DNA from: Candidatus Saccharimonadota bacterium
GTDB lineage: Bacteria; Patescibacteriota; Saccharimonadia; Saccharimonadales; Saccharimonadaceae
NCBI GenBank assembly: GCA_027493025.1
Contig: JAPUDQ010000038.1
Location: 1 to 38,288 of the forward strand
Length of the DNA stretch: 38,288 nt
Direction of reading: 5' to 3'
This document shows, piece after piece, positions 9,607 through 38,173 of the stretch. The notes under the pieces were generated by a model. The model worked only from the letters and a program-made list of their open reading frames with translations. It was not told where the DNA came from and did no database searches. The position numbers and the translations under genes were made by a program. Positions within the stretch are counted from its first letter, which is position 1, and each line of letters opens with the position of its first letter.

Positions 9607-9723
9607 TTGTAAATCTCACTTTAACTTTCTATAGAAATATTATACAATATATTAAATTAAAACGACAGACTTACGTACTTAGCTTATCACACTATTAGAT
9701 CTCGAGGAAAGGAAACGACACAA
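9607..9723. promoter_or_regulatory. AT-rich divergent promoter region
   Basis: The 117-base gap between the two divergent cargo transcripts. On the minus strand a perfect TATAAT lies at 9644-9639, about 33 bases upstream of the HPr-kinase-like start; a -35 is not clear. On the plus strand TACAAT (9643-9648) overlaps it, with TTAACT 16 bases upstream, which would drive the dehydrogenase gene. Overlapping -10 elements imply the two directions compete or are co-regulated. The dehydrogenase start at 9724 has an AAGGA-type site about 10 bases upstream. Confidence 0.55.
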
Positions 9724-13629: not shown

Positions 13630-13880
13630 GCGCGTAGCGCGGCGGCTCTGCCGCCTAGGCGAAGCCCCAACGCCTCTACTGCTTATGCAGTAGCCGAACC
13701 ACCAGAAAACACCCTTTTCAACTAAAAAAGAAATTCGGCGGGGGAAATATCAAAATAAGGGCAAAGGGATTTTTCTGGTGGGGCGAGCGGGCGCGTGCGC
13801 CCGCAGGCGTTGGGGCTGAGTCTGCACGGCTCAGCCGTTTTCCTCAAAATAGGTTCTAGCCTTGTCGTACAAGGACACCA
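13630..13880 (-). repeat. inverted repeat arm B
   Basis: Reverse complement of arm A (5393-5643) over 251 bp. Beyond the shared core (CACCA at 13876-13880) this copy continues into X, the inverted copy of the recombinase 1 3' end, so together they make an intact X-Y junction that reads LPSLVSLYDKARTYFEENG on the minus strand. Confidence 0.9.
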
Positions 13881-14010
13881 AAGACGGTAAAAAATTGAAT
13901 TGGTCGCCCGAATGGGCGGCTTTTTCTTTAGTTTTGCGGAGCAAAAACCAAATGTTCTCAGGGGGGAGAAAAGAACTTTGGGCAGCCGTAGGCTGCGCCT
14001 GTTTGGTTTT
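13876..14010 (-). repeat. 135-bp inverted repeat X, left copy
   Basis: Reverse complement of 15567-15701, no mismatch seen by eye. It reads as the C-terminal 45 codons of recombinase 1 on the minus strand but lacks a start. Identity stops abruptly at 14010. Confidence 0.9.
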
Positions 14011-14032
14011 AGCCGCCATTGGCGGTTTTTGG

Positions 14033-14038
14033 TATAAT
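14033..14038 (+). promoter_or_regulatory. extended -10 promoter of recombinase 1
   Basis: TGGTATAAT at 14030-14038 is an extended -10 element, placed so that transcription would start near 14045, the first base of stem 1 of the leader structure. A GCCGCC-ATT-GGCGGT hairpin lies where the -35 would be. The same arrangement, TGGTAAAAT, is found before recombinase 2. Confidence 0.6.
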
Positions 14039-14044
14039 ACAAAT

Positions 14045-14159
14045 GCACACAAGTTTTGAGAAGGCTATTTTTGTTGGCTTAAATGGCCGTCTAGTACAAT
14101 CTAGTCTTTTCTAGCTTGTGTGCAACTAGGCGGTCATTTAAGTTTTAGGGGGTAACACT
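14045..14159 (+). ncRNA. predicted pseudoknot leader of recombinase 1 mRNA
   Basis: Two interleaved inverted repeats. Stem 1 pairs GCACACAAG (14045-14053) with CTTGTGTGC (14115-14123). Stem 2 pairs a 17-mer at 14078-14094 (CTTAAATGGCCGTCTAG) with 14126-14142 (CTAGGCGGTCATTTAAG), with two G-U-type mismatches. Because stem 2 opens before stem 1 closes, the fold is an H-type pseudoknot. The 3' strand of stem 2 ends just before the AGGGGG ribosome-binding site and the ATG at 14160. The leader of recombinase 2 keeps both pairings although stem 1 has an unrelated sequence, which supports selection on structure. Likely role: control of recombinase translation. Confidence 0.7.
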
Positions 14160-15719
14160 ATGCAAAGCCAACAAAAATACTTTATCTATGCTCGTAAGAG
14201 TACAGATGTTGAGGACAAACAGGTTTTGTCCATTGAGGCGCAACTCGTAGAGTTGCGAGCATACGCCAAAAATGAAAACTTGCAGATAGTGGACGAGTTG
14301 GTTGAAAAACAGTCAGCCAAAACACCCGGACGCAAGATTTTTGGCGATATGCTCAAACGCATTGAAAACGGCGAAGCAAACGGCATTATTGCGTGGCATC
14401 CCGACAGGCTGGCTAGAAATAGCGTGGACGGCGGACAAATTGTATATTTACTCGACCAAACGCATGTGCAAGCTCTGAAGTTCCCGACCTTTTGGTTTGA
14501 GAACACATCACAAGGTAAGTTCATGCTCTCAATAGCGTTTGGTCAGTCAAAATACTATGTAGACAATTTGTCTGAAAACACCAAGCGTGGGTTGCGCCAA
14601 AAAGTCAGGCGTGGTGAGTTTCCAGGCAATGCGCCTGTTGGCTACATAAATGATGTGAGGACAAAAACTATTGTTGTAGACAAACGGCGTGCGCCGTTTG
14701 TGGTTGAGGCATTTGAGTTGTACGCCAAAGGCGATCAAAAGTTGCAGAACATCGCCGACTTTTTGGCAACCAAAGGCATAACAACATCAGGTGGCTTGCC
14801 CTTAAAGAAAGACCAGATTAAATATATGCTCACCAACCCCTTTTATTATGGTCATTTCCGTTACTGTTGCGAGATATATGAGGGCAGGCACACCCCGATT
14901 GTTGAAAAGAAACTATTTGACACTGTTCAGGCTGTTGCCGAGCAGCGAGGACATAGACAAAAAGGCACGACTGCGCCACAGATATTCTGTGGGCTTTTGC
15001 GTTGTGCAACGTGTGGGCTATCCATCACTGCCGAAAAGAAAGTTAAGCACCAGAATAATGGCAATGTTCACGAATATATCTACTATCGCTGCACACGCAA
15101 GCACAAAACCATTAAATGCACCGAACCAGCCGTAACTGAACCAGATTTAGCGGCGCAGTTGTCGGACATCTTGCAGGGCTACGCCCTGCCTGAAAGTTGG
15201 GCGACAGAGTTAGAGAAAATGCTTGCAGAGGACGAACGCAAACTAGAACAAACATCTGGCGTGTTTGTGGCAAGCGCACAAACTAGACTTGCAAACTTAC
15301 AAAGCAAGTTACAGCGACTTTTAGATAGTTATCTTGACCAAGATATTGACCAGCAAACCTATCGCAATAAACAAGCCGAACTAATGTCCGAGAAAAAGTC
15401 GCTGAACGAGCAAGTCAGTAAGCATACGCTTGCCGCCAATGTTTGGGTTGAACCTATGAGGAACTGGCTAAAAACAGCAGTTTCACTCTGTGAAACTGCC
15501 AAGAGTGGAAGTTTTGCGGAGATTAAACAAGCCTTGGTACAAATTGACGGATTGAACCTGTTTCTAAAAACCAAACAGGCGCAGCCTACGGCTGCCCAAA
15601 GTTCTTTTCTCCCCCCTGAGAACATTTGGTTTTTGCTCCGCAAAACTAAAGAAAAAGCCGCCCATTCGGGCGACCAATTCAATTTTTTACCGTCTTTGGT
15701 GCGCGGGGCGGGACTTTGA
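14160..15719 (+). CDS. large serine recombinase 1 (3' end replaced by att site)
   Basis: 519 aa. N-terminal resolvase domain with the nucleophile serine at residue 14 (YFIYARKS), WHPDRLARN near 78-86, then a recombinase domain (about 160-260), a zinc-ribbon-like segment (RCATCGLS, then C..KHKTIKC, about 280-325) and a coiled-coil region (about 345-430). It performs site-specific strand exchange at short att sites. ATG 14160 has AGGGGG 7 bases upstream. The last five codons (RGAGL, stop TGA) come from a tRNA-Leu 3' end remnant; before integration the tail would have been SLYDKARTYFEENG, still present at 5398 and, inverted, before 13876. Close relative of recombinase 2. Confidence 0.95.
   Translation: MQSQQKYFIYARKSTDVEDKQVLSIEAQLVELRAYAKNENLQIVDELVEKQSAKTPGRKIFGDMLKRIENGEANGIIAWHPDRLARNSVDGGQIVYLLDQTHVQALKFPTFWFENTSQGKFMLSIAFGQSKYYVDNLSENTKRGLRQKVRRGEFPGNAPVGYINDVRTKTIVVDKRRAPFVVEAFELYAKGDQKLQNIADFLATKGITTSGGLPLKKDQIKYMLTNPFYYGHFRYCCEIYEGRHTPIVEKKLFDTVQAVAEQRGHRQKGTTAPQIFCGLLRCATCGLSITAEKKVKHQNNGNVHEYIYYRCTRKHKTIKCTEPAVTEPDLAAQLSDILQGYALPESWATELEKMLAEDERKLEQTSGVFVASAQTRLANLQSKLQRLLDSYLDQDIDQQTYRNKQAELMSEKKSLNEQVSKHTLAANVWVEPMRNWLKTAVSLCETAKSGSFAEIKQALVQIDGLNLFLKTKQAQPTAAQSSFLPPENIWFLLRKTKEKAAHSGDQFNFLPSLVRGAGL
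15567..15701 (+). repeat. 135-bp inverted repeat X, right copy
   Basis: The 3' end of the recombinase 1 gene, repeated in inverse orientation at 13876-14010, ending at the TGGTG core. Includes the KTKQAQPTAAQSSF coding segment. Confidence 0.9.
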
Positions 15720-24437: not shown

Positions 24438-24514
24438 GCGGGTTTAGCTCAGTTGTTTAGAGCGCGTCCTTGCCAAGGACGAGGTCGAGAGTTAGAGTCT
24501 CTTAACCCGCACCA
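24438..24514 (+). tRNA. tRNA-Gly(GCC), integration target
   Basis: 77 nt with CCA. Acceptor GCGGGTT/AACCCGC, anticodon stem CGTCC/GGACG with loop TTGCCAA (anticodon GCC). Its last 13 bases overlap, on the opposite strand, the stop and last codons of recombinase 3 (GAG, stop TAA). The CCGCACCA at 24507-24514 is repeated at 35672-35679. Confidence 0.96.
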
Positions 24515-26151
24515 AGAACGAAATCATTGGTATCAACGAACCCTTTCCAGGGTTCGTTTAGTTTATAGGCTACTGTCGACCCCCGAAAAGTACCGTCTTT
24601 TTCTGGATGAATAGTAAAGTTAGAGAAGAAAATTCTTAGTAGTGTATTCATAGTCTCCATATTGCGTATTTTACCGAGAATAACGGGGGTCGTTTCTAAA
24701 AGTTTAAGATATTCTTCAAAAGTTGGGATTGTAGCCTTTAGGTTATCTTTTTGTTTAATAGCACGCCTATAGTCGGTCTTAAGTTTATTGATGTGCTTCG
24801 CGTGCTTATCTAGATCATAATGCTGTTTTAAATCAGGGTTTTTTCTGACTAATTCTTTTGTTTCTTCGTATACTTTTTCTTTATTGGCGATAAGTGTTTT
24901 TAACTTAGCTACGGACGAGTCAAGCTCGGTAGTCTTCCTTTTTAGCTCAATATTGGCCTGCTTGAGATACTCTGCGTAATTACTCTTTGTAATGAATAGG
25001 TATTGTTTAAAAAAGTCTTGAGCGGCATTTATAATAAAGCCACCTCGTGCGGATTTATCGAACATAGTGCAGTCTTTAGTTTCGCACTTATAGTAGTACC
25101 GTTTCTCTTTAATTTCACCGGTTTGCTTATCACGCTTCGGTATTAGCATCGAAGTCATAGTCTTGTTGCACCTACCGCAGTAAACCATCCCTCGAAGTAA
25201 ATCTGCATGTATATTGCCCCCACGAGGTCTGTGGATAGCTAGAACCTTCGCGTCGTCGAGACTATCTATCTTATTTATAGAAAGAAATTCGTTGACAGTA
25301 AGCATTGGCTTAAACTCATATAGGCTAGTTAGGTCGGTGAAGGTTTTGCCCCATTTGTGAACGCCGACATAATGAGGGTCACGAAGTAGCTTTGATACAT
25401 CATCCTTATCCCACTTATGGGGCGTATACAGACCGCCCTGACGCTTCTGAACGGTATAGTTTTGCTCATTTATCCAAAGGCGTATGTCCTTTTGTGACTT
25501 TCCGTTGAGCGCCATCTCGAACATGTGCTGGACCTTCTCAAAATTAAGAGGATCTGGTGTAAAGTATCTATTGATATCTACAATGTAGCCATGCTTAAAC
25601 TTTCCAATAAACTCACCGTCTTCAACAGCGCGTCTATTGCCTCTTTCTACGCTCTCAGCAAGGTGTTCCGAGTACTGTTTGGCCATAACGAAGGTGATAC
25701 CTAAAAGCATCTTTCCTGCTGGTGTATTTTCGAATGTGAAAGTTGCGAATTGGAGGTCTTTTATTGCACCCCTGTCGACGAGATCTATAATAGACCCAGC
25801 CTCTTTCATATTTCGAGAAAGTCTGTCCGGATGCCAGGCAATAACCCCATCAATATTACCGCATTCGATTTCCTTGACCATCGCATTGAACTGTTCTCGT
25901 AAATCGGCGACTTTAGCCGAGTAGCTTTCCTGATATGTCTTCACGACGTTGAGGTTATTCGGAATGATAACCTTGTCGTAACAATCATCTACCTGGTCCT
26001 CGATCGAAGAAGCCTGTCGGTCCTCACTCGTGGTGGACTTTCTGGTGTATAGGGCATAGCGAAGAGTAGATGTATCAACATCTTTAGGCGCTTTCGGCTG
26101 ACCTGACTGGAGAAGCTTTAATAGGTCCTGGGTGTTACTGAGTTCGGCCAT
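24502..26151 (-). CDS. large serine recombinase 3 (integrase of the defence island)
   Basis: 549 aa as integrated. Resolvase domain with nucleophile serine at residue 39 (YALYTRKS), WHPDRLSRN near 107-115, recombinase domain (about 190-290), zinc-ribbon CGRCNKT ... CETKDC (about 335-370) and a coiled-coil (about 395-490). Integrates into the tRNA-Gly 3' end; its last codons (GAG) are the antisense of that tRNA. The natural tail, about 38 residues, lies at 35674-35562. The ATG at 26151 follows a TATAAT (26163-26158) by six bases with no ribosome-binding site, so the mRNA looks leaderless. Distant in sequence from recombinases 1 and 2. Confidence 0.95.
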   Translation of the reverse strand: MAELSNTQDLLKLLQSGQPKAPKDVDTSTLRYALYTRKSTTSEDRQASSIEDQVDDCYDKVIIPNNLNVVKTYQESYSAKVADLREQFNAMVKEIECGNIDGVIAWHPDRLSRNMKEAGSIIDLVDRGAIKDLQFATFTFENTPAGKMLLGITFVMAKQYSEHLAESVERGNRRAVEDGEFIGKFKHGYIVDINRYFTPDPLNFEKVQHMFEMALNGKSQKDIRLWINEQNYTVQKRQGGLYTPHKWDKDDVSKLLRDPHYVGVHKWGKTFTDLTSLYEFKPMLTVNEFLSINKIDSLDDAKVLAIHRPRGGNIHADLLRGMVYCGRCNKTMTSMLIPKRDKQTGEIKEKRYYYKCETKDCTMFDKSARGGFIINAAQDFFKQYLFITKSNYAEYLKQANIELKRKTTELDSSVAKLKTLIANKEKVYEETKELVRKNPDLKQHYDLDKHAKHINKLKTDYRRAIKQKDNLKATIPTFEEYLKLLETTPVILGKIRNMETMNTLLRIFFSNFTIHPEKDGTFRGSTVAYKLNEPWKGFVDTNDFVLGAG

Positions 26152-26520
26152 GTGTTCATTATATAATTCATATCTAAAGTTAGAGCTACTTTAGGCTATA
26201 GATTAAAAAACTATTTTGTAACCATCTTTGATTAAGTACGGCCGTTCTTGCTCGCTACTTTCGGTGTAAATAGTGAGTAGGCGAAGAAGAGATACTAGCT
26301 CTAAATCAATGTTATTGTGCAACGAAAAAACGGGCATTTCGTGACTCCATGAAGTGAAACACTCCAGTTAGTCCGCGTGGTAAGCCCGTTTTTACCGAGT
26401 CGTTCTCGTTACTTACATTTCACGCATTAATGCAGCCCCGTTGTATTTTGAGCGGCCCGTCTCCGCTATCTAGCTACTACATGAAATACGGTAATTTTTT
26501 AATGTGAATTCAGTATAGTA
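26152..26520 (-). other. intergenic region with long-stem structure
   Basis: No gene. Contains a 10-bp stem AAAAACGGGC/GCCCGTTTTT (26326-26335/26384-26393) around a 48-nt loop, extended by AACGA/TCGTT (26321-26325/26400-26404). Read on the minus strand it ends in TTTTTT and probably terminates transcription from the 141-aa gene, but its large structured loop is unusual for a simple terminator. The recombinase 3 promoter lies at 26158-26163. Confidence 0.55.
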
Positions 26521-26946
26521 TTAATTCGATGATTTAACTACTACCAGTTTTACGCTGTCTCCAGTTTGCTTTAGATTGCCAATGACAAAAGCATCTACGG
26601 ACAGTCTATTATCGGTATCGTTCTCATCGAGCGGTTCAAATAGATCCGATGCTTCGCCGTTAATATCAGTCAGCGTTTCATTCTCAAATTCTGCATTAAC
26701 CGTATATCCTTGAGATTTGAGGTCTTTATACACTATAAGTCCTTCTTTTCCTTCGTAGTCAGATGCATTCAACTGCGGTAGGCTCGCTACTGGATTTGCA
26801 CCCTGTTCCTTTGTAGTAGTGTCAGTGGAATTATCGGTGTTGGCATTCTCGCTACCTGATTGACCAGCCGCACCAATTGCACCAAGCACAATCACGCCGA
26901 CTATCACCCAGAACCACCATTTTTTGAATATTGCTTTGTCTTTCAC
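26521..26946 (-). CDS. small membrane-anchored extracytoplasmic protein
   Basis: 141 aa. N-terminal basic residues then one transmembrane helix (KKWWFWVIVGVIVLGAIGAAG, residues 8-28), a low-complexity Ser/Thr/Asn/Asp linker (30-50), and a C-terminal domain of about 85 residues with a PASTA-like start (EGLIVYKDLKSQGYTVNAEF). No catalytic motif is seen. Likely anchored in the membrane with the domain outside. AGGAGG lies about 6 bases before the start. It stands apart from the defence operon, behind a terminator. Possibly host-surface or superinfection-related cargo, but the function is unknown. Confidence 0.75.
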   Translation of the reverse strand: MKDKAIFKKWWFWVIVGVIVLGAIGAAGQSGSENANTDNSTDTTTKEQGANPVASLPQLNASDYEGKEGLIVYKDLKSQGYTVNAEFENETLTDINGEASDLFEPLDENDTDNRLSVDAFVIGNLKQTGDSVKLVVVKSSN

Positions 26947-26984
26947 TCAGAACCTCCTTTAATTTTGTAGCAGGTCCATTCCAT

Positions 26985-27009
26985 AAAAAAGGACGACCCG
27001 CAGGTCGTC
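26985..27009 (-). terminator. intrinsic terminator of the defence operon
   Basis: Minus strand: GACGACC, loop TGCG, GGTCGTC, C then TTTTTT. Perfect 7-bp stem with a T tract, downstream of the UvrD-like gene; it isolates the operon from the 141-aa gene. Confidence 0.85.
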
Positions 27010-27106
27010 TAAAACCAGTACCAGCTTACGCCGAATACTTTTACGCGAGTCGCCCATTTTTTGGCATAAACACGCAAAAAGCGATGAATTGATACTGGTT
27101 TTAGAC
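27007..27106 (-). ncRNA. structured RNA-like element next to the terminator
   Basis: A perfect 14-bp inverted repeat (27093-27106 and 27007-27020, GTCTAAAACCAGTA on the minus strand) encloses 72 nt with smaller hairpins such as CGC-TTTTT-GCG. Its 3' strand shares three bases with the terminator stem, so the two can compete. It may be a small RNA ending at the terminator, a 3' UTR structure, or a remnant of an inverted-repeat element. No family recognised. Confidence 0.4.
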
Positions 27107-27271
27107 ACTTTTGATTATATATTCTTTAATGCTTTAGCGCTAGTAACAGATGTATTTTTAATAAATTACATTGCATAAGCGAAAAACGCGTCGGGAATGT
27201 TGCGCCCAAAAATTCGGTACTTATACGGCGGAGTCTGTTTTTACAAAAAGAAAGGTGGTCTACCCCCGTAT

Positions 27272-29074
27272 CTAAAGGGTAGTGTCATATGCAAAAGAGT
27301 AGTCGCGAAGAATTATAGTCGCTGGATACTCACCAAAGCTGCCTCTTGTACGACCTGTTTCGGATATGAGATGCAGGTTCTTTCTTGCCCTGGATGCAAT
27401 GACGTATAGCAATTTTTTCGCAGAGTCCACGCGATTAATATCAGAAAAGTGCGGGACCATGCCTTCTAATAAAGAAAATGCGATTACGGTATCGAACTCA
27501 GCGCCTTTTATTCCATGGATTGTCGATATAGTAATACCCGAGTTCTCTTTAAACACACGACGGAATGAGTCAATATCACTGAAGTCGACTCCGTCTCTAC
27601 TAAGTTGTTCGACTCTTTTGGTGCTAGAAAGTATAAAGCTGTCTTTTTGAAGCTTTAAGTTTTCATGTGCGTCAATATTGATCCCTAGATACTGAAAAAG
27701 TTCAGAGAAAAAAGCCTGCAAGTATAGCATGCCATCTGTTTCTGAGATTGAAATAGAGTTTGAGGCAAACAGTAAAGATTTATTTGTAAGAGAATTATCT
27801 TTTAACAATCCGTATGCTGAAAGGTCATTTATTATTTCTCTTGCCCAGCGCATACGTCTTTTGTACATCGTTGGAGAGGCGCTTGTTAGTGCTATTTTTG
27901 AAACCTTGTACCAAAAATTGTCAAGGTCTCGAGCAAAAGGCACAGTTCCCGGACCATCGAAACTATACTGAGGTAATCTTGCAACCAATCTTCTTGTTAT
28001 TGTTGAAAGCTGAGTCCACCATGGTGCTAGTACACATATTTCATGAGGTGAAACACCGAGGATTTCAATATTGTACTGAATTAGGTTCACCAGGCGGTCT
28101 TCAAGCTCGTATCTATCAACCTGATTATCATAGGTGATTAAGGTATTGATATCTTCCTCTTTCACAAAATGAGTGATTGTTGACTGGTGGACATTGAAAG
28201 CGCTGAAGTATCGAATGATGCGCTCTTCGGAACGATAGTTAACAGATAATTGGCGCTTATTGATCGTAACTTCAGTAAGGCTCCTCAAATCAGGTAAGCT
28301 AATCGGGTAGCCGCCTAATCCCTGAAAGATTGACTGATTAGGATCTCCAACCATGAAAAGTCTAGTACTATCATGACCCGCACGGATGATTGAGCCGATG
28401 ATGAGATACTGCAGCTGGCGAGTATCTTGGTATTCATCAACTAGAACTATCGAGAAGAGTCCCGACAGCAACTTAGAAATATTTGGATTTTGTTTGATAA
28501 GTTTATAGGCATAATTAAGTATCATCTCGTAGTCGATGAGGCGTCTGTCATAGAGAATACTGAAATACTCATCTAAAATCGCTTTGATGACCGGATGTTT
28601 TCGCGTGTCCGAAGAAGAAATTTTATAACCATTTTCATTAAAGTAGTAGCCGCAGTCATAATAAGTTACTCCACTGCCTGAATGATTTTGACAAAGACTA
28701 TTTAACAGGGTTTCTTGCTCCATTGAGTCAATAACCCTAAAGCCATATTTAAGTTCTTCGGCATAGATATAATACGGGCGAATAATCCATTCAAGGCAAA
28801 AAGAGTGGATAGTTCCAATCCAAAGATTTGAAGTATCTACTCCTATTGATTGTACTCTGTCTTGTATCTCGTCGGCTGCGCGATGTGTATAAGTTAGGGC
28901 AATAACAAATTTTTTGCCCGTTTCGTCTAGTGATAGCTGCTGAGCTATCTTCGATGTTAGAGTGCGTGTTTTTCCACTTCCTGGGCAAGCTATTAAAAGA
29001 ACGCTCTGCGAGTCTAGGACTGCATCGATTTGGGCTTGGTTCAAGCCCTTAAGATAGGACTCCTGTTCAGGCAC
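27272..29074 (-). CDS. UvrD/Rep-like superfamily 1 helicase (defence operon)
   Basis: 600 aa, start GTG at 29074 overlapping the preceding stop (TAGTG). SF1A motifs in order: Q motif LNQAQ (11-15), Walker A ACPGSGKT (29-36), Ia ALTYTHRAADE, II VDEYQDT, III VGDPNQSIF, IV VNYRSEE, V STIHGIKGAEFDTV, VI LLYVIASRARKNL. A 3'-5' helicase translocating on DNA. Paired with an OLD-type ATPase-TOPRIM protein, as GajB is with GajA in Gabija defence, though this helicase is longer than typical GajB. Last gene of the five-gene operon. Helicase identity is firm; the Gabija-like role is inferred from the pairing. Confidence 0.93.
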   Translation of the reverse strand: MPEQESYLKGLNQAQIDAVLDSQSVLLIACPGSGKTRTLTSKIAQQLSLDETGKKFVIALTYTHRAADEIQDRVQSIGVDTSNLWIGTIHSFCLEWIIRPYYIYAEELKYGFRVIDSMEQETLLNSLCQNHSGSGVTYYDCGYYFNENGYKISSSDTRKHPVIKAILDEYFSILYDRRLIDYEMILNYAYKLIKQNPNISKLLSGLFSIVLVDEYQDTRQLQYLIIGSIIRAGHDSTRLFMVGDPNQSIFQGLGGYPISLPDLRSLTEVTINKRQLSVNYRSEERIIRYFSAFNVHQSTITHFVKEEDINTLITYDNQVDRYELEDRLVNLIQYNIEILGVSPHEICVLAPWWTQLSTITRRLVARLPQYSFDGPGTVPFARDLDNFWYKVSKIALTSASPTMYKRRMRWAREIINDLSAYGLLKDNSLTNKSLLFASNSISISETDGMLYLQAFFSELFQYLGINIDAHENLKLQKDSFILSSTKRVEQLSRDGVDFSDIDSFRRVFKENSGITISTIHGIKGAEFDTVIAFSLLEGMVPHFSDINRVDSAKKLLYVIASRARKNLHLISETGRTRGSFGEYPATIILRDYSFAYDTTL

Positions 29075-31209
29075 TAGTATGCCTCTAGGAGTTTGTTTAA
29101 TTGTTCATTGGGAAATTTATCTATGTAGGATAATTTGAGGGTATCGAAATCTAAAGAGTTTGACTGATATAAGTTAAGTTGTGATTGGAACTCCTCTATT
29201 CTTGCTTGGTCAACCCCAGCGTCGTGAGTAAGAATATTTAGTCGATGCTTAAATATATTTACCCATACATTATTCTTGATACCAGAGATAGTAAACGCGA
29301 GCGCTCGCATTATATAAGAGGGGATGACTGTATCTTTGTCGACTTTTTCGCTTAGTAAAATCGCAAACCATCCTTTACCGGCATTATTTGCCATCTGTAA
29401 AACTCTTTTACCTGAGATGCCTATGTCCGTAGATGCTAGCTCAGTAGTAGCTGATCTGATTTTTGCTTCAGTTTCATAAATACTTGATAGGACTGAAGTA
29501 ACTAAATTCTTATTACCGGCACCCAGCAACTCTACTTCGAATGTATGTTGACCAAAAAAAGGCGATACCCACTCATTACCCAGAGTGTAAGCCTCAAGTA
29601 TAGTCCTTCTTGCCAATCCTGAAGCCTGTGATCTTGCCAGAGCTTCTTTGTATGCTTTAAGCTTATCGCTATCGGCTTCAGCTGGAGTGGTGTCGATAAT
29701 TGACTGGTCTAAGTCGGTAATAATTGCGCAACGCTTTTTAACTCGCTCTTCATTGAAGATGTTTGCAATGTTTTCAAATCCAGTACTACCAACATTCACA
29801 AGGCTGACCCCAAGTTCGTCAAGGGATGTTCCAAGCACCTCTTTTACAATCATTGGTAGTAATATCTCTTCCGCATCACCTTCAACAAGCATCACACTTC
29901 TCGAAAAGAGCAGATTACTCCTTATAGCATCCAGGTATCTCTCTAGGTGATTTATCTTCTCGTCATTTAAGCCAGTGGCTGGTTGGAACGCTACACAGCC
30001 GGATTTATCGCGTCCAAGAATGTTCATATTTCGTATCTTGCTAACTTCAGAGATCTGAGTAGAGTGTGTTGAATATATGATTTGTGCATCGTCATAGGAT
30101 AGTTTATTAAACAAAGTCTTCTGTATATGGTTATGGATATGAGCCTCGGGTTCTTCGATGAAAAGAAAGTTTGCAAATGAGATACCGGGTTTTTGGTATT
30201 TGAATTCTAGTAACTTTAAGGTTAAGTAGATGAGATTTGCACCACCTAAACTTAGTTCGTTTATGTCGCCTTCGTATTCATCAACACCTTCGCTGATAAA
30301 AAGTTTTAGCGACTGAAGAAGCTTATCTGCCTCATTCGAAAGCCCCGATTTAATCGACATCGATGAGGGGGAATATGTTTCGCCAGCAGCGTCTTTAATT
30401 GTTTTTGTTATGTCTTCGCCTACGGACTTCACTTCGTCAAGTGTCTCAATTGAATTATTAAGGTTTTGAACTTGGCTAGAAATTGCACTGAACGCTACAG
30501 GATCGATTGAACCACTCTTGGTATTTAAAAGATTTTTTAAAGGATTATTGCGGTTATTCTTGAACTCAGAGATTACGTCTCGCAAAGCTTGGATGTGGGT
30601 AAAGCTTACTTCTTTAGAGATAGAGAACTGATTGTTGGTCTTTGTACCAATCCTAGGGTCATCTACTTCCTCTTGGAAGATGGCATTTTCAAAATCACCA
30701 GCTAGCTCTTTGTAGACATTATCGTCCGCAAAGTCTGCGGTACTTCTACCTGTAAATATTGTTTCGTAGTCGTCGATTGTAATTTCTTCGATTATACGCT
30801 GCATACCCGCACGATCGCCTTCTGAAAGCGATGCGAACTTTAATCGTATTTCTTTGTTTGGTCTAAATATTAAATTGTATGTTGCGCGCTCAACAGCCTC
30901 CTGATCAGTGTCGCCTGTAGTATGGAGGAAGAGGGCTTGCACAGACTCTTCGGCGGATATATCCATAAATTCAACACTAATGATGATCCAATGCCCTCTC
31001 CAGTCGGGAAGATTTCGACTGAAGTCGGTTTCTTCGAGATGGTAAGCTGCTCTAATCATAGTATCGTCCAATACTAATCTCGCAGCTCTAAATAAGTTCG
31101 TTTTACCTATACCATTTTCGCCAATTACTGTATTCACACCCTTTTGAAAGAGAAGCTGTGCTTTAACAAAGTTACGGTAGTTTCTGAGTTGTAGTTTTGA
31201 TATGTACAT
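29074..31209 (-). CDS. OLD-family ATPase with TOPRIM nuclease domain (GajA-like)
   Basis: 711 aa. ABC-type ATPase: Walker A GENGIGKT (30-37), signature LSLGG (319-323), Walker B FLFIEEPE (348-355), switch His STHS (380-383). C-terminal TOPRIM: LVEGDAEE (441-448, Glu 443) and DLD (499-501). The family nicks or cuts DNA, with the ATPase sensing nucleotides or DNA; tandem OLD plus UvrD pairs are the core of Gabija-like defence. A 128-base gap separates it from nurA, with TACAAT 8 bases before the ATG and no ribosome-binding site, so it may have its own leaderless promoter in addition to read-through. Its stop overlaps the helicase GTG. Confidence 0.93.
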   Translation of the reverse strand: MYISKLQLRNYRNFVKAQLLFQKGVNTVIGENGIGKTNLFRAARLVLDDTMIRAAYHLEETDFSRNLPDWRGHWIIISVEFMDISAEESVQALFLHTTGDTDQEAVERATYNLIFRPNKEIRLKFASLSEGDRAGMQRIIEEITIDDYETIFTGRSTADFADDNVYKELAGDFENAIFQEEVDDPRIGTKTNNQFSISKEVSFTHIQALRDVISEFKNNRNNPLKNLLNTKSGSIDPVAFSAISSQVQNLNNSIETLDEVKSVGEDITKTIKDAAGETYSPSSMSIKSGLSNEADKLLQSLKLFISEGVDEYEGDINELSLGGANLIYLTLKLLEFKYQKPGISFANFLFIEEPEAHIHNHIQKTLFNKLSYDDAQIIYSTHSTQISEVSKIRNMNILGRDKSGCVAFQPATGLNDEKINHLERYLDAIRSNLLFSRSVMLVEGDAEEILLPMIVKEVLGTSLDELGVSLVNVGSTGFENIANIFNEERVKKRCAIITDLDQSIIDTTPAEADSDKLKAYKEALARSQASGLARRTILEAYTLGNEWVSPFFGQHTFEVELLGAGNKNLVTSVLSSIYETEAKIRSATTELASTDIGISGKRVLQMANNAGKGWFAILLSEKVDKDTVIPSYIMRALAFTISGIKNNVWVNIFKHRLNILTHDAGVDQARIEEFQSQLNLYQSNSLDFDTLKLSYIDKFPNEQLNKLLEAY

Positions 31210-31337
31210 CTAGGTATATTGTAGGTCAAATCTTAGAAACAATCACTCAATTTGCAGGAAATCAGTCAAGCTAGTTAGATTTTTCAAGTCTGGCATAAGT
31301 CGCGGTAGAGTAATCGGTGGCTGCAAGCTATACACTA
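31210..31337 (-). promoter_or_regulatory. gap with possible internal promoter of OLD-UvrD
   Basis: The only sizeable gap in the operon. TACAAT on the minus strand ends 8 bases before the OLD-like ATG; the -35 is weak. It would allow the OLD-UvrD pair to be expressed apart from Dam-HerA-NurA. Confidence 0.35.
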
Positions 31338-32651
31338 TTATCCTTTATCGAAAGAGTCTGCAAATATCTGAAGAATACGCGCTGATGGGTAGGTAGATAG
31401 TGATGCTACGCCATTAGCAAGCTCTATCGGCAATAGCGCACCTTCAAACCGACTACTTAAAATCGTCGGTAATGTACTAAATATTCTATCCGCGCCTATT
31501 AGATCGTCTAGCGTTGGATTGGGCTTAAACGTCCCGGTTGGGATACTGAGAACCATATGATGGTAGTCGTCAATTTTCATAAAGATCTTTGATCCATAAT
31601 TTGTATCTACGCCGTACGCCGCACCATCTTCTGGTCGGTGCTGAACCTCTTCTTTGATAAATTTATCACCCGGTATGAAAATACTTCCTATAGGAGCGTT
31701 ACGGTAACTTACGTCAAGAAAATCGACAAAGCGTCCTGTTTTTTCCTGACCCATAAGATGAACTGTAATCCCTTCGCTTTTAGCAAAAGCAAAAAACCTG
31801 CGGATAGGCGCAACAAGTTTTGAATACTGCGCTCGTATTGATAGCGGACCATCTTTGATAAATAGACAGTCATTCAATATTTCTCGATTACTTTCCCAGT
31901 ACAGGCGTATTCCGGTGAACAAAAGCATAGTTTCATGGATTAACATGTAGGATGTACCAACCGTCTCCGGAGCAAACTCCTCAGCCATATCTTGATGGAA
32001 GCCGAGCATGTCAGTTATCAAAAGTTCACCGCCACAGCTTGTACAGTTACCCTTTTCTGCACCGTACGGCAGCGATGCGGCTTGACTCGGACAATGAGGG
32101 CATTTAAAGGGTGGTATAGCCTTTTCTTGGCCGTCCCATTTTTCGTAGACCAACCACTTTAATGTTTCGAGAGGTTCTCCATTTAAGGAGTCATCCTTCA
32201 TCGACTCGAAGATTACCTCTCTTACAGAGTCTAGGACGCTAACACCGGGTACGCGTACGTTTTTAAGTGGTAGAACTGTTGCGTGATACAGTGCCGCGTC
32301 GGTCATGATTTTTTTTAATGCGAATGGGTGCGGATTATTTTTATCAATTTTTGCTAAAGCTTGCTGATCAAGGCGCAGTAACGCGGTCTTGATGAATGAC
32401 ATTTCCTTGCGAGGGACCGAGTCTCCTTTTACTGTTTGGATAGAGCCGTCAACTCCAAATATGATTGGCAGAGGTTCATACCCGGTAGGATACGGCTGCC
32501 ATATAAGCTCCTGTGAAGTAATGTCCTCATCTTTTGCTGGCAGCTCAAAATTACTGCAGAGCTTATTAACTAGCTCACTTTTTAAAACCTCAAGGTGACC
32601 AAGCTTACTGGCTTTTTCTCCTGGGAGTCTACTGCCGGATTGGTACGGCAT
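31338..32651 (-). CDS. NurA-family nuclease
   Basis: 437 aa. NurA features: the first metal-binding Asp in FGVDGSIQTVKGDS (about residues 65-78), FIKDGPLSIRAQYS (canonical fi.DGpL), and the C-terminal segment with EDGAAYGVDTNYGSK and SIPTGTF. It contains an inserted zinc ribbon (CPHC at 184-187 and CTSC at 203-206). NurA is a 5'-3' nuclease acting in complex with a HerA hexamer. The ATG directly follows the herA stop (TAGATG), as expected for partners. Longer than archaeal NurA (about 330-350 aa) because of insertions. Confidence 0.88.
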   Translation of the reverse strand: MPYQSGSRLPGEKASKLGHLEVLKSELVNKLCSNFELPAKDEDITSQELIWQPYPTGYEPLPIIFGVDGSIQTVKGDSVPRKEMSFIKTALLRLDQQALAKIDKNNPHPFALKKIMTDAALYHATVLPLKNVRVPGVSVLDSVREVIFESMKDDSLNGEPLETLKWLVYEKWDGQEKAIPPFKCPHCPSQAASLPYGAEKGNCTSCGGELLITDMLGFHQDMAEEFAPETVGTSYMLIHETMLLFTGIRLYWESNREILNDCLFIKDGPLSIRAQYSKLVAPIRRFFAFAKSEGITVHLMGQEKTGRFVDFLDVSYRNAPIGSIFIPGDKFIKEEVQHRPEDGAAYGVDTNYGSKIFMKIDDYHHMVLSIPTGTFKPNPTLDDLIGADRIFSTLPTILSSRFEGALLPIELANGVASLSTYPSARILQIFADSFDKG

Positions 32652-34637
32652 CTATTCAGTTTCCTGTGATTTTGTTGGCTCAAACTTCTTAGCCTGAACA
32701 GGTATAGCAAAACGGTGAGAGCGCGTGAGCATCCTGACGTATCCTGGTTTTTTTGCACTTAAGATGTCTGCGCGAAGACTTTCGTAAGCAATGTTCAGTT
32801 TTGCAAGCGCTTCAACCTCATCTCGGGACGAAAGGTGCGCAATAAAGAAGTTTTCTGTTTGTGCTAACAAGTCTTTACTTACCGTTGTAGGTGACTGCGT
32901 AGAGTAAACCATACCTATATGGTACTTTGCGCCTTCTTTGGCAAATCGGTTATAGATGGTAGTAACGTCCTTGCTGCTATTAGGGAACAAATTGTGAGCC
33001 TCTTCAAAGTACAGCTGAACAAAGTGGTCGCCCAGCTTATTATTACTGAACTTATCAACTTGATGGTTGAACACCGCCTTTGACAATGAGTCGGAAAAGT
33101 ACGTTACTAAGCTAGGCTCTGCATTTCCTAAGTCTAGAATTACAGTTTGACCTTTATCAAGTAATCCAAGAATTTCATTAATGAAGTCGCCTGCTTGCTT
33201 GTCATGGTACTTACGATAAGAGGTGATTATACTTGGTCCACTTCCACTCCTTGGTAGTAGAAATTCCATTAGGTAAGCTAGATCAGCATCCATCTCATTG
33301 AAATGTTCGGAAGAGGCGTTATTATGACGATACGTATTAATTATTTTAAATTCATTTACCATGCCCCTAAGTGTCGTTGGAGCGGGTGGAACACTATCGC
33401 TTTCAGCGTATGCTGCTTCGCGTAGTTTTTCATTAAATCCTGGGTTGAAGGCCCGTACTGAGGGGTTTGGATAGGCACTAGGTGCCTTTATCCTTAAGTC
33501 CTCTTCTTTAGCATCAAAACCTGCTTCGCTTAAGATTGCCCAGAAACACTGGATTTTTCGCACAGCTCTTACCTTGTCCCCAACGGACTCCATGCTTGAT
33601 ATGTCTACAATAGAAGGTAATTGAACGCTCATGAAAGATTTCACATAATTCGAGGTGATATTGTCCAGCCCTAGAAGTTCATCAATAACACTCTTAGCGC
33701 TCGTTGGCTGTTCGTAGAAGTTGAGCTTCAACTGCTTGGAGTCAGTTGACTCCTTCTTGGTTAGTGCGTAAACAGTGCATCTGTCACTGTAAGCACTCTT
33801 CAAAGAGCTGTTGTTATCTTGAGGGTTATCATTTGCGTACTCTCCATTAATATCAAAAATCAGCTGGCCTACACTATTTTCACTTGCGTATGTCTCTATT
33901 AGACTCTGTGCGATAAGCTTTACAATATTACTCTTTCCTAGGCGTGTCTTTCCGAACATAGCAGTTCGTGCGCCTCGAAAATCATCCGTAGATACATTAA
34001 CGTCAACATTTGGTAGGTTTTTAGTCGGTAGGGGTAGGCGATTTTCAGTAAGGCGTAGTTTACCCATCGCAAACCGATGATCGGTTGGAACTAAACAATT
34101 AACTATCAAGTCAAGGAGCGGGTCTGTTGGGGCATAAACCATATACTTATGCGCGCTAACGAAGTTGTTTAAGTCACCCGAAAATTCAACCTCTTTCCTT
34201 TTATCAGGATTAGGGTAGAACATGCCTAGAACCTCTGTTTTAAGAGCGCCCCACTGCAGCTCACTCTGAGTGAAGATGTCCAACTCAGGCATTGATTTCT
34301 TTTGTAGCTCGAAGTAAGTTTGCTGTACATCTCTTGCTAAAGGTGTTGGAGCTGACTCAAGAACACGCAGTAACGTAAAGTGGGGAGGTAGTTGTCCGTC
34401 CAGAATGGCAGGCACCATGATGAGTAACGAATTGCGCGGAACCCCGCCCACGGCAACTTTAAAAGGGTCAGATGTAATGATTGTGGCCTTGTCATAGCCC
34501 GCTTCGAGTACGTAACCGACAAAGCGCATTTCATCAAACTTTCCCGCGGCCTCGTTTCCAGCTTCATTATTCAAAAAATCCCCTAAAACACTTAGAGGGT
34601 TGTCGCTTAATGCTGCTGTATTAAAAAAATCTTTCAC
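32652..34637 (-). CDS. HerA-like hexameric DNA translocase
   Basis: 661 aa with GTG start at 34637 (AAAGG about 10 bases upstream). An N-terminal HAS-barrel-like region, then the FtsK/HerA ATPase: Walker A GKTRLGKS (229-236), Walker B LIFDINGEY (259-267), a second acidic strand VQLYFEEAHNLFPN, and a sensor segment YSTQSPTTVSKDLLAQ with RDEVEAL near the C terminus. It pumps DNA through the ring towards the NurA nuclease encoded directly downstream. Bacterial HerA-nuclease pairs are known from defence loci. Follows the Dam-like gene by 13 bases. Confidence 0.92.
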   Translation of the reverse strand: MKDFFNTAALSDNPLSVLGDFLNNEAGNEAAGKFDEMRFVGYVLEAGYDKATIITSDPFKVAVGGVPRNSLLIMVPAILDGQLPPHFTLLRVLESAPTPLARDVQQTYFELQKKSMPELDIFTQSELQWGALKTEVLGMFYPNPDKRKEVEFSGDLNNFVSAHKYMVYAPTDPLLDLIVNCLVPTDHRFAMGKLRLTENRLPLPTKNLPNVDVNVSTDDFRGARTAMFGKTRLGKSNIVKLIAQSLIETYASENSVGQLIFDINGEYANDNPQDNNSSLKSAYSDRCTVYALTKKESTDSKQLKLNFYEQPTSAKSVIDELLGLDNITSNYVKSFMSVQLPSIVDISSMESVGDKVRAVRKIQCFWAILSEAGFDAKEEDLRIKAPSAYPNPSVRAFNPGFNEKLREAAYAESDSVPPAPTTLRGMVNEFKIINTYRHNNASSEHFNEMDADLAYLMEFLLPRSGSGPSIITSYRKYHDKQAGDFINEILGLLDKGQTVILDLGNAEPSLVTYFSDSLSKAVFNHQVDKFSNNKLGDHFVQLYFEEAHNLFPNSSKDVTTIYNRFAKEGAKYHIGMVYSTQSPTTVSKDLLAQTENFFIAHLSSRDEVEALAKLNIAYESLRADILSAKKPGYVRMLTRSHRFAIPVQAKKFEPTKSQETE

Positions 34638-34650
34638 CCAAGTCTGCCTT

Positions 34651-35475
34651 TCAGTAGTTTGTTATTAACACCTCCCCTGGGTTCTCGTCAATTATTCCTA
34701 GACGCGAGCCGGTACCGTGGGGTATTTGTGTTATTTTACAACTTTCCAGATAAAGCCTCAATACGTCAGGGTGTGAAGAGGTTGTCATTGCCCATCGTAC
34801 GCCGCGCTCACTAGCCGAGTGTAGTGCATCTGAAAGCCGCTGCTGGTCCTTAAAGCTAAAACAGCCGTACTGATAGTGGCCATCGTCCATCTCTTTAGCG
34901 CCTGGTTTGTAAGGTGGATCGAGAAAAATGAAGTCACCCTCATTACTCATGTTTATTACATGTTCAAAATCTTTATTTAAGAGCGTTGCGTCCTTAAGGT
35001 GACTAGAGACGTCTCTCAGACTCTTTTCCGAAATAGCCCATCTTCGACCTTGTCCGCCATATCCAACGTTGAACTTTCCTTTAGAGTTGTAGCGCCACAT
35101 TCCTTTGAAGCAAGTCCTATTTAGATACAAGGTTCGAGCAGCTTTTAATTCAAGGGGACCGTCATCTTCGGCACGTATCGCATAGTAGTCTTCTTTCGTA
35201 TCTGGAAATGATTGAAAATAATCCCACACAGCATCGGAATTAATTTTTAATCCCGCGTAAAGGTTAATTAGCTCTTTGTTCCTGTCGGATAAAATTGCTT
35301 TATGTGGAGTTAGGGCAAAGAAAACCGCTCCTCCACCGAGGAAAGGCTCAAAATATGCTCCTTTGATATCATCGGCCACAGGGAGGAGTGGCAGCAAGAA
35401 TGCAAGCATACGCTGTTTACCACCTGGGTAGCGTAAAAATTTAACATGTGTTGATTTTGGGGCTACTGTTTGCAT
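34651..35475 (-). CDS. Dam-like DNA adenine-N6 methyltransferase (D12 class)
   Basis: 274 aa from ATG 35475. Motif X FLRYPGGKQRM (about 10-20), motif I YFEPFLGGGAVFFAL (about 40-54), DRNKELINLY, and catalytic DPPY in FIFLDPPYKPGA (about 180-190). It methylates adenine in DNA, perhaps marking self for the downstream HerA-NurA/OLD-UvrD effectors. The open frame extends to 35559, where the ATG overlaps the TAA of the displaced recombinase 3 tail (TAATG), but a good promoter (TTAACA, 18, TACAAT at 35529-35500) inside that extension favours 35475. First gene of the five-gene operon. Confidence 0.93.
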   Translation of the reverse strand: MQTVAPKSTHVKFLRYPGGKQRMLAFLLPLLPVADDIKGAYFEPFLGGGAVFFALTPHKAILSDRNKELINLYAGLKINSDAVWDYFQSFPDTKEDYYAIRAEDDGPLELKAARTLYLNRTCFKGMWRYNSKGKFNVGYGGQGRRWAISEKSLRDVSSHLKDATLLNKDFEHVINMSNEGDFIFLDPPYKPGAKEMDDGHYQYGCFSFKDQQRLSDALHSASERGVRWAMTTSSHPDVLRLYLESCKITQIPHGTGSRLGIIDENPGEVLITNY

Positions 35476-35499
35476 TTTTTTGTTTTTTAGCTTTTCACT

Positions 35500-35529
35500 A
35501 TTGTAGCATAAGCTTAATTGTAATGTTAA
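35500..35529 (-). promoter_or_regulatory. promoter of the defence operon
   Basis: On the minus strand TTAACA (35529-35524), an 18-base spacer and TACAAT (35505-35500), about 25 bases before ATG 35475. In the excised circle the recombinase 3 gene would run into this promoter and the operon in the same direction. Confidence 0.6.
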
Positions 35530-35558
35530 CTGATGTGTAAGCAAGTTGTTGCCCGGCA

Positions 35559-35674
35559 TTAGTAGATGACTGTCTCGCTCATGGTCGACGGCTCCCTAAT
35601 CTTCAATGTATCAATGCTATTTAAGCCGCCTTCGACTATGGCATTAAAAAGTTTAAGTAAATTCTGTAGCTCCG
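35559..35674 (-). pseudogene. detached C-terminal tail of recombinase 3
   Basis: Read from the core at 35679 leftward in the frame of recombinase 3, this stretch is open for 37 sense codons (starting GAELQNLLKLFNAIV, ending MSETVIY) and stops at TAA 35561-35559. It has protein-like composition and no start of its own. It appears to be the original end of recombinase 3, separated by integration into tRNA-Gly. In the recombinase 2 frame the same bases give only 13 codons. Confidence 0.7.
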
Positions 35675-37213
35675 CACCAGAAATGGACTTTCGGAAAAAT
35701 TGTCGCCCATTTGGGCGGCTTTTTCTTTGGCGGCGCGGAGCGCCAGCCAGATGTTTTCAGGGGGAGAAAAAGAATAATGGGCAGCCTTAGGCTGCGCCTG
35801 TTTGGTTTTTAGAATGAGGTTTGAGCCAAAGATTTCCTGGCAGAGTTCCTTTTTGGCAAGCAGGTCATCACTCTCGGTAATTCTACAAATAGAATTGGCT
35901 GTTGTGACCCACTGGCGAGCAGGTTTGAGCCACGCATTAGCGGCAAGAGTTAGCTTGCCAGATTGCTCTTCCAGCGACTTCTTTTCGCTCAACAGCTCGG
36001 CTTTCTTTTGCAGATAAATCTCACGCTCAATATCTTGGTCTAGGTAACTGTCTAGAAGTCGCTGTAACTTGCTTTGCAAGTTAGCAATCTTTGTCTGAGC
36101 TGCTGCTATGAATACGCCAGATGTTTGCTCAGCTTTGTGTTCGTCAGTGCCCAGCATTGTCTCGAGTGGCTTTAGCCAACTATTTGGCAGAGCGTATTCA
36201 TTAAGCAGATCAGACAGCTGCTCGTCCAGCAGCTCCGCTCTAATGTGTGGTTCTGGGCATTTCACGCTTTTGCGCTTTTTCGTGCAGTGGTAGTAGGTGT
36301 AGTAGCGAGTAATACCGTTCTTTAGGTGTTTCGGTATGGTATCTGCGGTAACCATCATACTGCACGATCCACAGCGCAATAAGCCGCACAGCGGCTTTGG
36401 CGTGTTGGTTTTGGTGGTTCTTTTATGCCTACGCCTGTCAAACACTGCCTGCACTTGGTCAAATAGTTTCTTTTCAACTATTGCCTTGTGTTTGCCCTCA
36501 TATACCTCGCCACCATAGCGGAAATGTCCATAATAAAAAGGATTGGTCAGCATTTTGGCTATCTGGTCTTTTTTGAGGGGCAAACCGCCAGTTGTTTTTA
36601 TGCTTTTACTTGCTAGAAAGTCAGCGATATCTTGCAGCCTTTGGTCGCCTTTGGCGTATAACTCAAAGGCTTGTAGGACAAGCGGGGCAATTCGTTTGTC
36701 TACAATAATAGATTTTGTTCGTACATCATTTATGTAACCGAGTGGTGCAAGTCCGGGCATCTCACCCCGCCTGACTTTTTGGCGTAGCCCTCTCTTTGTG
36801 TTTTCGGACAAGTTGTCTACATAGTATTTGGACTGTCCAAACGCTATTGAGAGCATAAACTTACCTTGGCTGGTGTTTTCAAACCAAAACGTGGGGAACT
36901 TTAAGGATTGCAGGTGCGTTTGGTCAAGCAAGTAGATGACTTGTCCGCCGTCGATGGAGTTGCGGGCTAGACGGTCGGGGTGCCATGCCAAAATGCCGTT
37001 TGCTTCGCCGTTTTCTATGCGTTTTAGCATACTGCCAAAAATAGGCCTGCCAGGAACTTTGGCGGATTGTTTCTCGACCAACTCATCAATTATTTGTATG
37101 CCCTCATTTTTGGCGCATGCTCGCAACTCTACCAGTTGTGCCTCAATGCTTAAAACTTGTTTATCCTCTACATCTGTACTCTTGCGAGCGTACAAAAAGT
37201 ATTTTTCGTTCAT
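35636..37213 (-). CDS. large serine recombinase 2 (3' end replaced at att site)
   Basis: 525 aa from ATG 37213 (AGGGGG 8 bases upstream; GTG 37222 is in frame). Resolvase domain with serine 12 (YFLYARKS) and WHPDRLARN, recombinase domain, zinc ribbon (RCGSCSMMV ... CTKKRKSVKC), coiled-coil at about 340-430. A close homologue of recombinase 1 over the whole length. The natural tail after the core (LV then DFYNEIQTYFTSRS) survives at 37509-37553 next to the inverted copy of its 3' end; the present tail (RSYRIYLNFLMP) is read from the end of island 3. Points toward tRNA-Gly, as recombinase 1 points toward tRNA-Leu. Confidence 0.94.
   Translation of the reverse strand: MNEKYFLYARKSTDVEDKQVLSIEAQLVELRACAKNEGIQIIDELVEKQSAKVPGRPIFGSMLKRIENGEANGILAWHPDRLARNSIDGGQVIYLLDQTHLQSLKFPTFWFENTSQGKFMLSIAFGQSKYYVDNLSENTKRGLRQKVRRGEMPGLAPLGYINDVRTKSIIVDKRIAPLVLQAFELYAKGDQRLQDIADFLASKSIKTTGGLPLKKDQIAKMLTNPFYYGHFRYGGEVYEGKHKAIVEKKLFDQVQAVFDRRRHKRTTKTNTPKPLCGLLRCGSCSMMVTADTIPKHLKNGITRYYTYYHCTKKRKSVKCPEPHIRAELLDEQLSDLLNEYALPNSWLKPLETMLGTDEHKAEQTSGVFIAAAQTKIANLQSKLQRLLDSYLDQDIEREIYLQKKAELLSEKKSLEEQSGKLTLAANAWLKPARQWVTTANSICRITESDDLLAKKELCQEIFGSNLILKTKQAQPKAAHYSFSPPENIWLALRAAKEKAAQMGDNFSESPFLVRSYRIYLNFLMP
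35675..35812 (-). repeat. 138-bp inverted repeat X2, left copy
   Basis: 3' end of the recombinase 2 gene; reverse complement of 37371-37508, no mismatch seen by eye. Confidence 0.9.
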
Positions 37214-37222
37214 AGTTTTCAC

Positions 37223-37336
37223 CCCCTAAAACTTAAATGACCGTCCTGGTGCAACCAACTTAGGAAACCTAAATTGTCCAAGACGGCCATTAAAGCCCTC
37301 AACAAAATAAAAAAGTTTCCTGTAAGTTGGTTGCAC
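37223..37336 (-). ncRNA. predicted pseudoknot leader of recombinase 2 mRNA
   Basis: Two interleaved pairings as in recombinase 1. Stem 1: 37336-37315 with 37268-37249 (20 bp with a two-base bulge; GTGCAACCAAC pairs with GTTGGTTGCAC). Stem 2: 37295-37278 with 37249-37232 (CTTTAATGGCCGTC pairs with GACGGTCATTTAAG, G-U pairs included). Stem 2 is conserved in sequence with recombinase 1, while stem 1 is unrelated in sequence but keeps pairing and position. Extended -10 TGGTAAAAT (-10 hexamer 37346-37341) would start the RNA at stem 1. Confidence 0.7.
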
Positions 37337-37370
37337 TATCATTTTACCAAACATAAACCGCCAATGGCGG

Positions 37371-37508
37371 CTAAAAACCAAACAGGCGCAGCCTAAGGCT
37401 GCCCATTATTCTTTTTCTCCCCCTGAAAACATCTGGCTGGCGCTCCGCGCCGCCAAAGAAAAAGCCGCCCAAATGGGCGACAATTTTTCCGAAAGTCCAT
37501 TTCTGGTG
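37371..37508 (+). repeat. 138-bp inverted repeat X2, right copy
   Basis: Inverted copy of the recombinase 2 gene end, still joined to its natural tail (Y2), which runs on to a TAA at 37551-37553. Confidence 0.9.
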
Positions 37509-37834: not shown

Positions 37835-38173
37835 ATGGACGACCATAAAAAGAATGCCGGTACTGATGAGGTGCTGGCTAAAATCGTAAAGTTTTCGGAC
37901 AAATACCGTCCGATTGCTGAGGAACTGCACGCAATCATTATCAAAGAAGCACCTACCGCAGAGCCCAGGTTATGGTACGGTATGCCAGGCTATGCGCTGA
38001 GTAAAGATGGGCCGGTGGTGCTGTTTTTCCGCGAGGACAAATACATCTCCTTTGGCCTTACCGAAAATGCCAACGTATCCGTTGACGGATTGACAGAGAA
38101 CGCTTGGTTTTTGACTTCTCTGGACGATGCTTCCAAGCAAAAAATCGCCTCGATAATACGAAGTATTCTTTAA
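37835..38173 (+). CDS. DUF1801 (YdhG-like) family protein
   Basis: 112 aa. Matches the DUF1801/YdhG pattern: an N-terminal helix pair, IIKEAPTAEPRLWYGMPGYALSKDGPVVLFFREDKYISFGL (canonical W.mP.y...g..v.......hisl). Small cytosolic single-domain protein; some members bind iron or act in stress responses but the molecular role is not established. AAGGAG stands 7 bases before the ATG and there is a good promoter upstream. It lies just outside the Y-type structure of module 2, so it may be cargo of the element continuing to the right. Confidence 0.85.
   Translation: MDDHKKNAGTDEVLAKIVKFSDKYRPIAEELHAIIIKEAPTAEPRLWYGMPGYALSKDGPVVLFFREDKYISFGLTENANVSVDGLTENAWFLTSLDDASKQKIASIIRSIL

Follow-up and report, generated by a model that had tools for sequence, protein, structure and literature searches.

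Integration appears to sever a conserved C-terminal tail from large serine integrases of Saccharibacteria

The "suicidal" integrases of the archaeal elements SSV1, pTN3 and pT26-2 carry attP inside the integrase gene, the pieces of which flank the integrated element until excision restores the gene (PMC8371274). These enzymes are tyrosine recombinases, and integration cuts the catalytic part away from the remainder of the protein, leaving two inactive pieces; a review of the archaeal systems describes self-disrupting recombinases as exclusively archaeal (PMC8371274). Among bacteria, the 3' end of the Dehalococcoides gene dsiB always overlaps attL, and McMurdie et al. (2011; PMC3146451) speculated that DsiB may reach full function only as part of the circle, or when an adjacent island supplies the missing 3' fragment. 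The accessible text of that paper describes DsiB as a CcrB-like serine recombinase that targets the tmRNA gene (ssrA) and works beside DsiA; in that text the 3' fragment is neither identified nor shown to be conserved. Mycobacteriophages with integration-dependent immunity (BPs, Brujita and prophages of M. abscessus) have attP in a coding sequence, and truncation by 20-35 residues switches the protein (PMC8092301; PMC4557955). The gene switched in these phages is the repressor, and their integrase is a tyrosine recombinase.

The locus described here lies in a window of 38,288 nucleotides, the whole stretch of DNA that was analysed, to which all coordinates refer. Integrase 3 (IntA; 24502..26151, minus strand) is a large serine recombinase whose gene runs into tRNA-Gly(GCC) (24438..24514, plus strand; ARAGORN and Rfam), the integration target on the attL side. 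The 3' end of the tRNA gene is the core CCGCACCA (24507..24514, plus strand), and a second copy of this core at 35672..35679 (plus strand) marks attR. The chromosomal product has 549 residues and ends in FVLGAG. Directly beyond the attR core, 37 codons and a TAA stop (35559..35671, minus strand) encode ELQNLLKLFNAIVEGGLNSIDTLKIREPSTMSETVIY; the first G of the GAG codon of this tail is supplied by the core, and its stop (35561-35559, minus strand) overlaps an ATG at 35559-35557. Joined in phase across the core, the two frames would give a protein of 585 residues that reads NDFVLGA and then ELQNLLKLFNAIVEGGLNSIDTLKIREPSTMSETVIY, in place of the VLGAG of the chromosomal form. attP would thus lie within the integrase coding sequence, with pieces of the gene at both ends of the element, and by its sequence integrase 3 is a gene split by its own integration. 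The island would comprise 24515-35671 plus one core (about 11.2 kb). The sequence-only reading had proposed the split, the two core copies as boundaries of the island and a different C-terminus for the circle, and all three proposals are borne out as far as the frames go, the circle being a predicted form.

The domain order of this enzyme is that of the phiC31, Bxb1 and A118 integrases, namely an N-terminal domain, a recombinase domain and a zinc ribbon with an inserted coiled coil. In those large serine integrases attP is outside the coding sequence, and direction comes from a separate directionality factor. The N-terminal resolvase domain of integrase 3 matches Pfam PF00239 (E=3.3e-20) and has the invariant catalytic serine, S39, in a YxRKST motif; PF07508 and PF13408 (recombinase and zinc ribbon) are also matched. 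There is no match to PF16795, and as a serine recombinase the protein falls outside the archaeal tyrosine superfamily. It resembles the archaeal integrases in having attP inside the gene, in the partition of the gene by integration and in the pieces that flank the element. It differs in being a bacterial serine recombinase that would lose a short C-terminal tail alone and keep a complete predicted fold. With DsiB it shares the bacterial serine recombinase type and a 3' end overlapping attL (PMC3146451, as far as its accessible text goes). The targets here are tRNA-Gly, tRNA-Pro and tRNA-Gln, the island in the window has no second small recombinase gene, and the fragments were found and compared. 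The split gene is a recombinase and not a repressor, which separates it from the immunity systems. The literature searched, which took in few subscription journals, held no earlier report of tails in Saccharibacteria integrases.

The window alone is suggestive of a split but does not prove it, since an open frame of 37 codons has a chance of about 1 in 6 ((61/64)^37). Nor is the 8-mer CCGCACCA diagnostic by itself, because it is present five times within the window. A scan of 84,980 species genomes for homologues of IntA yielded 11 loci, all but one labelled Saccharibacteria, TM7 or Patescibacteria, the remaining record being titled just "bacterium". In 10 of the 11 the integrase ends in tRNA-Gly(GCC), and in the remaining one (L024) at another TGGTGC site; the core common to L020 and L023 is reduced to TGGTGC (minus strand). 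All 11 have a homologous tail at the distal end, directly after a TGGTGC core; it lies upstream of the integrase, shares its strand and phase, and has the pattern (E)LQNLLKLF...IIY before the stop. Homologues without the tail would have spoken against the split proposed in the sequence-only reading, and none of these Gly-type loci lacked it. A coincidental open frame across the core, conceivable at odds of 1 in 6 for the window by itself, is refuted by these tails. Most of the 11 also have a terminator-like hairpin on the outer side of the core, as expected if that side is the original downstream flank of the tRNA gene. At L024:11620-11700 the Gly-type integrase occupies a TGGTGCACC site other than tRNA-Gly, and the tail at the far end is intact; this may be a secondary target. 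Past the core, the integrated proteins stop at once or read antisense tRNA, and that extension is not conserved.

A tail-specific profile matched many more genomes. With the core-encoded GA included, the 17 distinct Gly-type tails are 37-41 residues long; LQNLLKLF or EQNLLKLF is present in nearly all, (I/V)IY ends every one, and the stop codons TAA, TAG and TGA are all used. Their pN/pS is 0.37 over codons one to ten, a stretch that overlaps the att half-site, 0.75 for the middle and 0.20 for the last four codons. The conserved end lies about 105 bp away from the core, farther than any att half-site of a serine integrase extends, and so cannot be att DNA.

Two chromosomal remnants carry an integrase end and a tail in one frame. 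In G066 KVTYKLKEPWDGFLKANELVLGA is followed by TEQNLLKLFEW...IIY and a stop, and in G003 IILNPQYDLMADLEKVPSGR is followed by EKNAPAEPIIEALHQLL...IEFVR and a stop. Judged by their reading frames, both appear to be natural copies of the predicted circle junction, and both fit a younger island that inserted between the tRNA and an older integrase and donated its own tail. These remnants also bear on the idea that the tail does not belong to the integrase and is a small gene of its own or an att arm conserved at the DNA level. Intact tails are found in units without an integrase gene, as that idea would have it, but the tails have no conserved start codon, their phase always matches that of the integrase on the other side of the core, their substitutions are codon-like and the two remnants read through in a single frame; we regard a separate gene or arm as highly improbable. 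A full-length tailed integrase was found in none of about 390 genomes. Tailed relatives were likewise absent from viral contigs queried with the 585-residue protein, a 60-residue junction, an alignment of the family and a recombinase of clade B, and from phage records queried with the junction. None of these searches turned up a circle, a read pair or a free element. The absence of full-length copies from chromosomes, despite the arrays in which these units occur, is faintly suggestive of a form that does not persist.

Searches across the class revealed many more integrases, and most of those examined end in tRNA genes. A clade at tRNA-Pro, with 35-46% identity to IntA, has the tail GR....LEL... 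in all six islands with enough flank, compared with 1 of 424 control cores. In a third clade (tRNA-Pro and tRNA-Gln), six islands have the tail L..LY.LL.NY...K..L..L...FLL. Further pairs of integrase end and tail were listed, each within one genome and one orientation. Islands examined with both pieces thus number 25 (13 Gly-type, 6 and 6). No tail was present in the 16 kb searched at L039, where the contig ends, and the search at L047 gave no clear one. A comparison of Gly-type with Pro-type tails gave no significant homology; from these alignments, each of the three recombinase clades appears to have its own conserved distal tail.

Tails and integrase bodies do not always diverge together. 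Integrase bodies of L017 and L018 are 95% alike and their tails 66% alike, and for the window and L016 the values are 88% and 43%; correlation with the body is 0.49 for the tail and 0.76 for the body's own last part. Such strong differences between tails on bodies 88-95% alike, and the freely varying tail middle, are what would be seen if the tail had no present role, attP just happening to overlap the gene's 3' end and the two protein forms behaving alike. We consider this quite unlikely, because length, frame, the first ten and the last four codons are conserved across the 17 Gly-type tails with all three stops in use, because the three clades have clade-specific tails, and because the conservation reaches beyond any att half-site. 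The divergence may also be read, tentatively and with some doubt, as a sign that the tail is an exchangeable part of the integrase in integron-like arrays at tRNA-Gly, where an arriving unit would reactivate the integrase already present and tails would be shuffled among the integrases. Each unit inserting beside the tRNA would then pass its own tail to the integrase behind it, and tails would be borne both by islands and by small integrase-less cassettes with a single gene. Fast drift of the tail middle is the alternative to such exchange. Intact tails without an integrase do occur at tRNA-Gly, in units with one small gene.

These cassettes (L021:4924-6246; L063, reverse complement, 9306-10080; L119; L123; L130) consist of the core, an intact tail and one small gene, often DUF1801-like. 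Their conserved right end reads AAAAATACGC...GCGTATTTGACAAAT...TAAAAT and is followed by the next TGGTGC. The window has a DUF1801 gene resembling that of the cassettes at 37835-38173, to the right of the unit that adjoins attR, and no tail is present past it up to the contig end at 38288.

The unit that abuts attR (35675..37508), called module 2, had been taken for a further island that begins at the core. It is instead a recombinase unit of 1.83 kb bounded by perfect inverted repeats of 138 bp (35675-35812 and 37371-37508), and this interpretation replaces that of a second att-bounded island. Its recombinase gene (35636-37222, minus strand) has its stop just beyond the inverted repeat. A second 1.83-kb unit at 13876-15701 has a large serine recombinase gene between perfect 135-bp inverted repeats; the repeats are 100% alike inside a unit and about 81% alike between the two units of the window. 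All 11 relatives examined (L138-L148) likewise have inverted repeats; these measure about 107-139 bp and are 77-100% alike. In appearance the 1.83-kb units resemble an IS or an invertible recombinase element, of no nameable kind.

The cargo of the island (27272-35475) is a complete Gabija pair together with a methylase, an ATPase and a protein without a family, all on the minus strand. GajB, the helicase (27272..29074; PADLOC E=3.7e-238), and GajA (29074..31209; PADLOC E=1.6e-295) are accompanied by a 437-residue protein of unknown family (31338..32651; no Pfam or PADLOC match), a HerA-like ATPase (32652..34637; Pfam DUF87/HerA, PADLOC HerA) and a D12 (Dam-type) DNA adenine methylase (34651..35475). 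A 141-residue ORF at 26521..26946 (minus strand) also belongs to the cargo and has no family match in Pfam or PADLOC. From the TAATG overlap it had been suggested that the integrase and the methylase operon are coupled. The Pfam and PADLOC matches of the methylase begin at residue 39-44 of the longer frame; because the D12 domain begins at residue 44 of the frame from 35559, ATG 35475 is the likely start, and the FLRYPGGK motif fits it. A promoter-like TTAACA-N18-TACAAT for this operon (35500..35529, minus strand; a consensus match of which about one is expected by chance in the region) sits past the tail stop and ahead of ATG 35475. The next gene converges on the tail in five other islands of the Gly type (L016, L017, L018, L022 and L026). 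On these grounds the coupling is rejected for the island of the window. Five of the six Pro-type islands have a same-strand gene 7-63 bp past the tail stop, so coupling of tail and gene may hold there. These small genes (L040, L042, L043, L044 and L046; upstream loci L069, L071, L072, L073 and L075) could encode a directionality factor or be expressed from the circle.

An AlphaFold model of the 549-residue form (mean pLDDT 78; pTM low at 0.39) has a catalytic domain, a recombinase domain, a zinc ribbon (323-369), a pair of coiled-coil helices (389-474) and returning strands (509-531); sequence matches to structures are limited to catalytic domains (3g13, 3bvp). By the standards of the serine-integrase family the truncated protein is complete in this model, and the tail would therefore be an added C-terminal element. 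It is placed right behind the zinc-ribbon and coiled-coil region, where directionality factors act on phiC31 integrase according to the accessible text of PMC5814800.

We propose that the large serine recombinase mobilises its island from an attP that its own coding sequence contains, 36-37 codons upstream of the stop. The intact gene of the circle would encode the 585-residue protein. Recombination with the 3' end of tRNA-Gly would restore the tRNA, sever the gene and move the last codons to the distal attR, and the chromosomal copy would produce the 549-residue protein, with the complete canonical fold and no tail. The frames indicate that tail and integrase would be joined only in the circle or once another unit inserts in front. 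The conservation of the tail as protein in 25 islands of three clades points to a need for it in the circle. Its position directly behind the direction-controlling region makes productive attP x attB synapsis or directionality the most likely way in which it helps the circle to integrate. Loss of the tail after integration would make the process self-limiting, and the integrase would regain a tail by excision or by the insertion of a further tail-bearing unit between it and the tRNA. Integration probably acts in this way as a built-in switch on the integrase, in 25 or more related islands spread over several tRNA genes. Beyond the split itself, its phase, its conservation and the two chromosomal fusion remnants, all of which are observed, we put at roughly 0.6 the probability that integration works as a covalent switch, the circle requiring the tail and the enzyme being limited once the tail is gone; the existence of the circle, of both protein forms and of a loss of activity is inferred.

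Besides the absence of any free form from the searches, and of a tail at L039 and a clear one at L047, two points count against a switch: with every canonical domain present, the truncated form could be fully active, and canonical serine integrases already require a directionality factor for excision, which makes self-truncation unnecessary to stop it. The switch could also have the opposite sign, the sequence being compatible with a tail that helps or one that inhibits. As an inhibitor or degradation signal, the tail would leave the circle integrase restrained or unstable, and integration would stabilise or license the enzyme. The geometry of integration-dependent immunity, with attP inside the gene and a product 20-35 residues shorter (PMC8092301), is an analogy for this, and the short hydrophobic endings IIY, IKL and FLL and the complete fold of the truncated form agree with it. 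An inhibiting tail nevertheless seems unlikely, because the N-terminal half, amphipathic in appearance, is conserved as well as the end, because the ending is not of the ssrA-like -AA type, and because an integrase destabilised just when integration is required is less plausible.

If a tail that helps integration is the right reading, the self-disrupting logic of archaea would now extend to bacterial serine integrases, across a whole class of organisms whose genomes are very small and in which little gene transfer is known. The split would explain the stray antisense-tRNA peptides that end annotated recombinases of Saccharibacteria, and a search for the tail offers an exact way to locate both ends of an island. 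Enzymes cloned from integrated copies would lack their natural C-terminus. Should the tail control direction or activity, it would be a covalent one-shot switch of possible use in engineered integrases.
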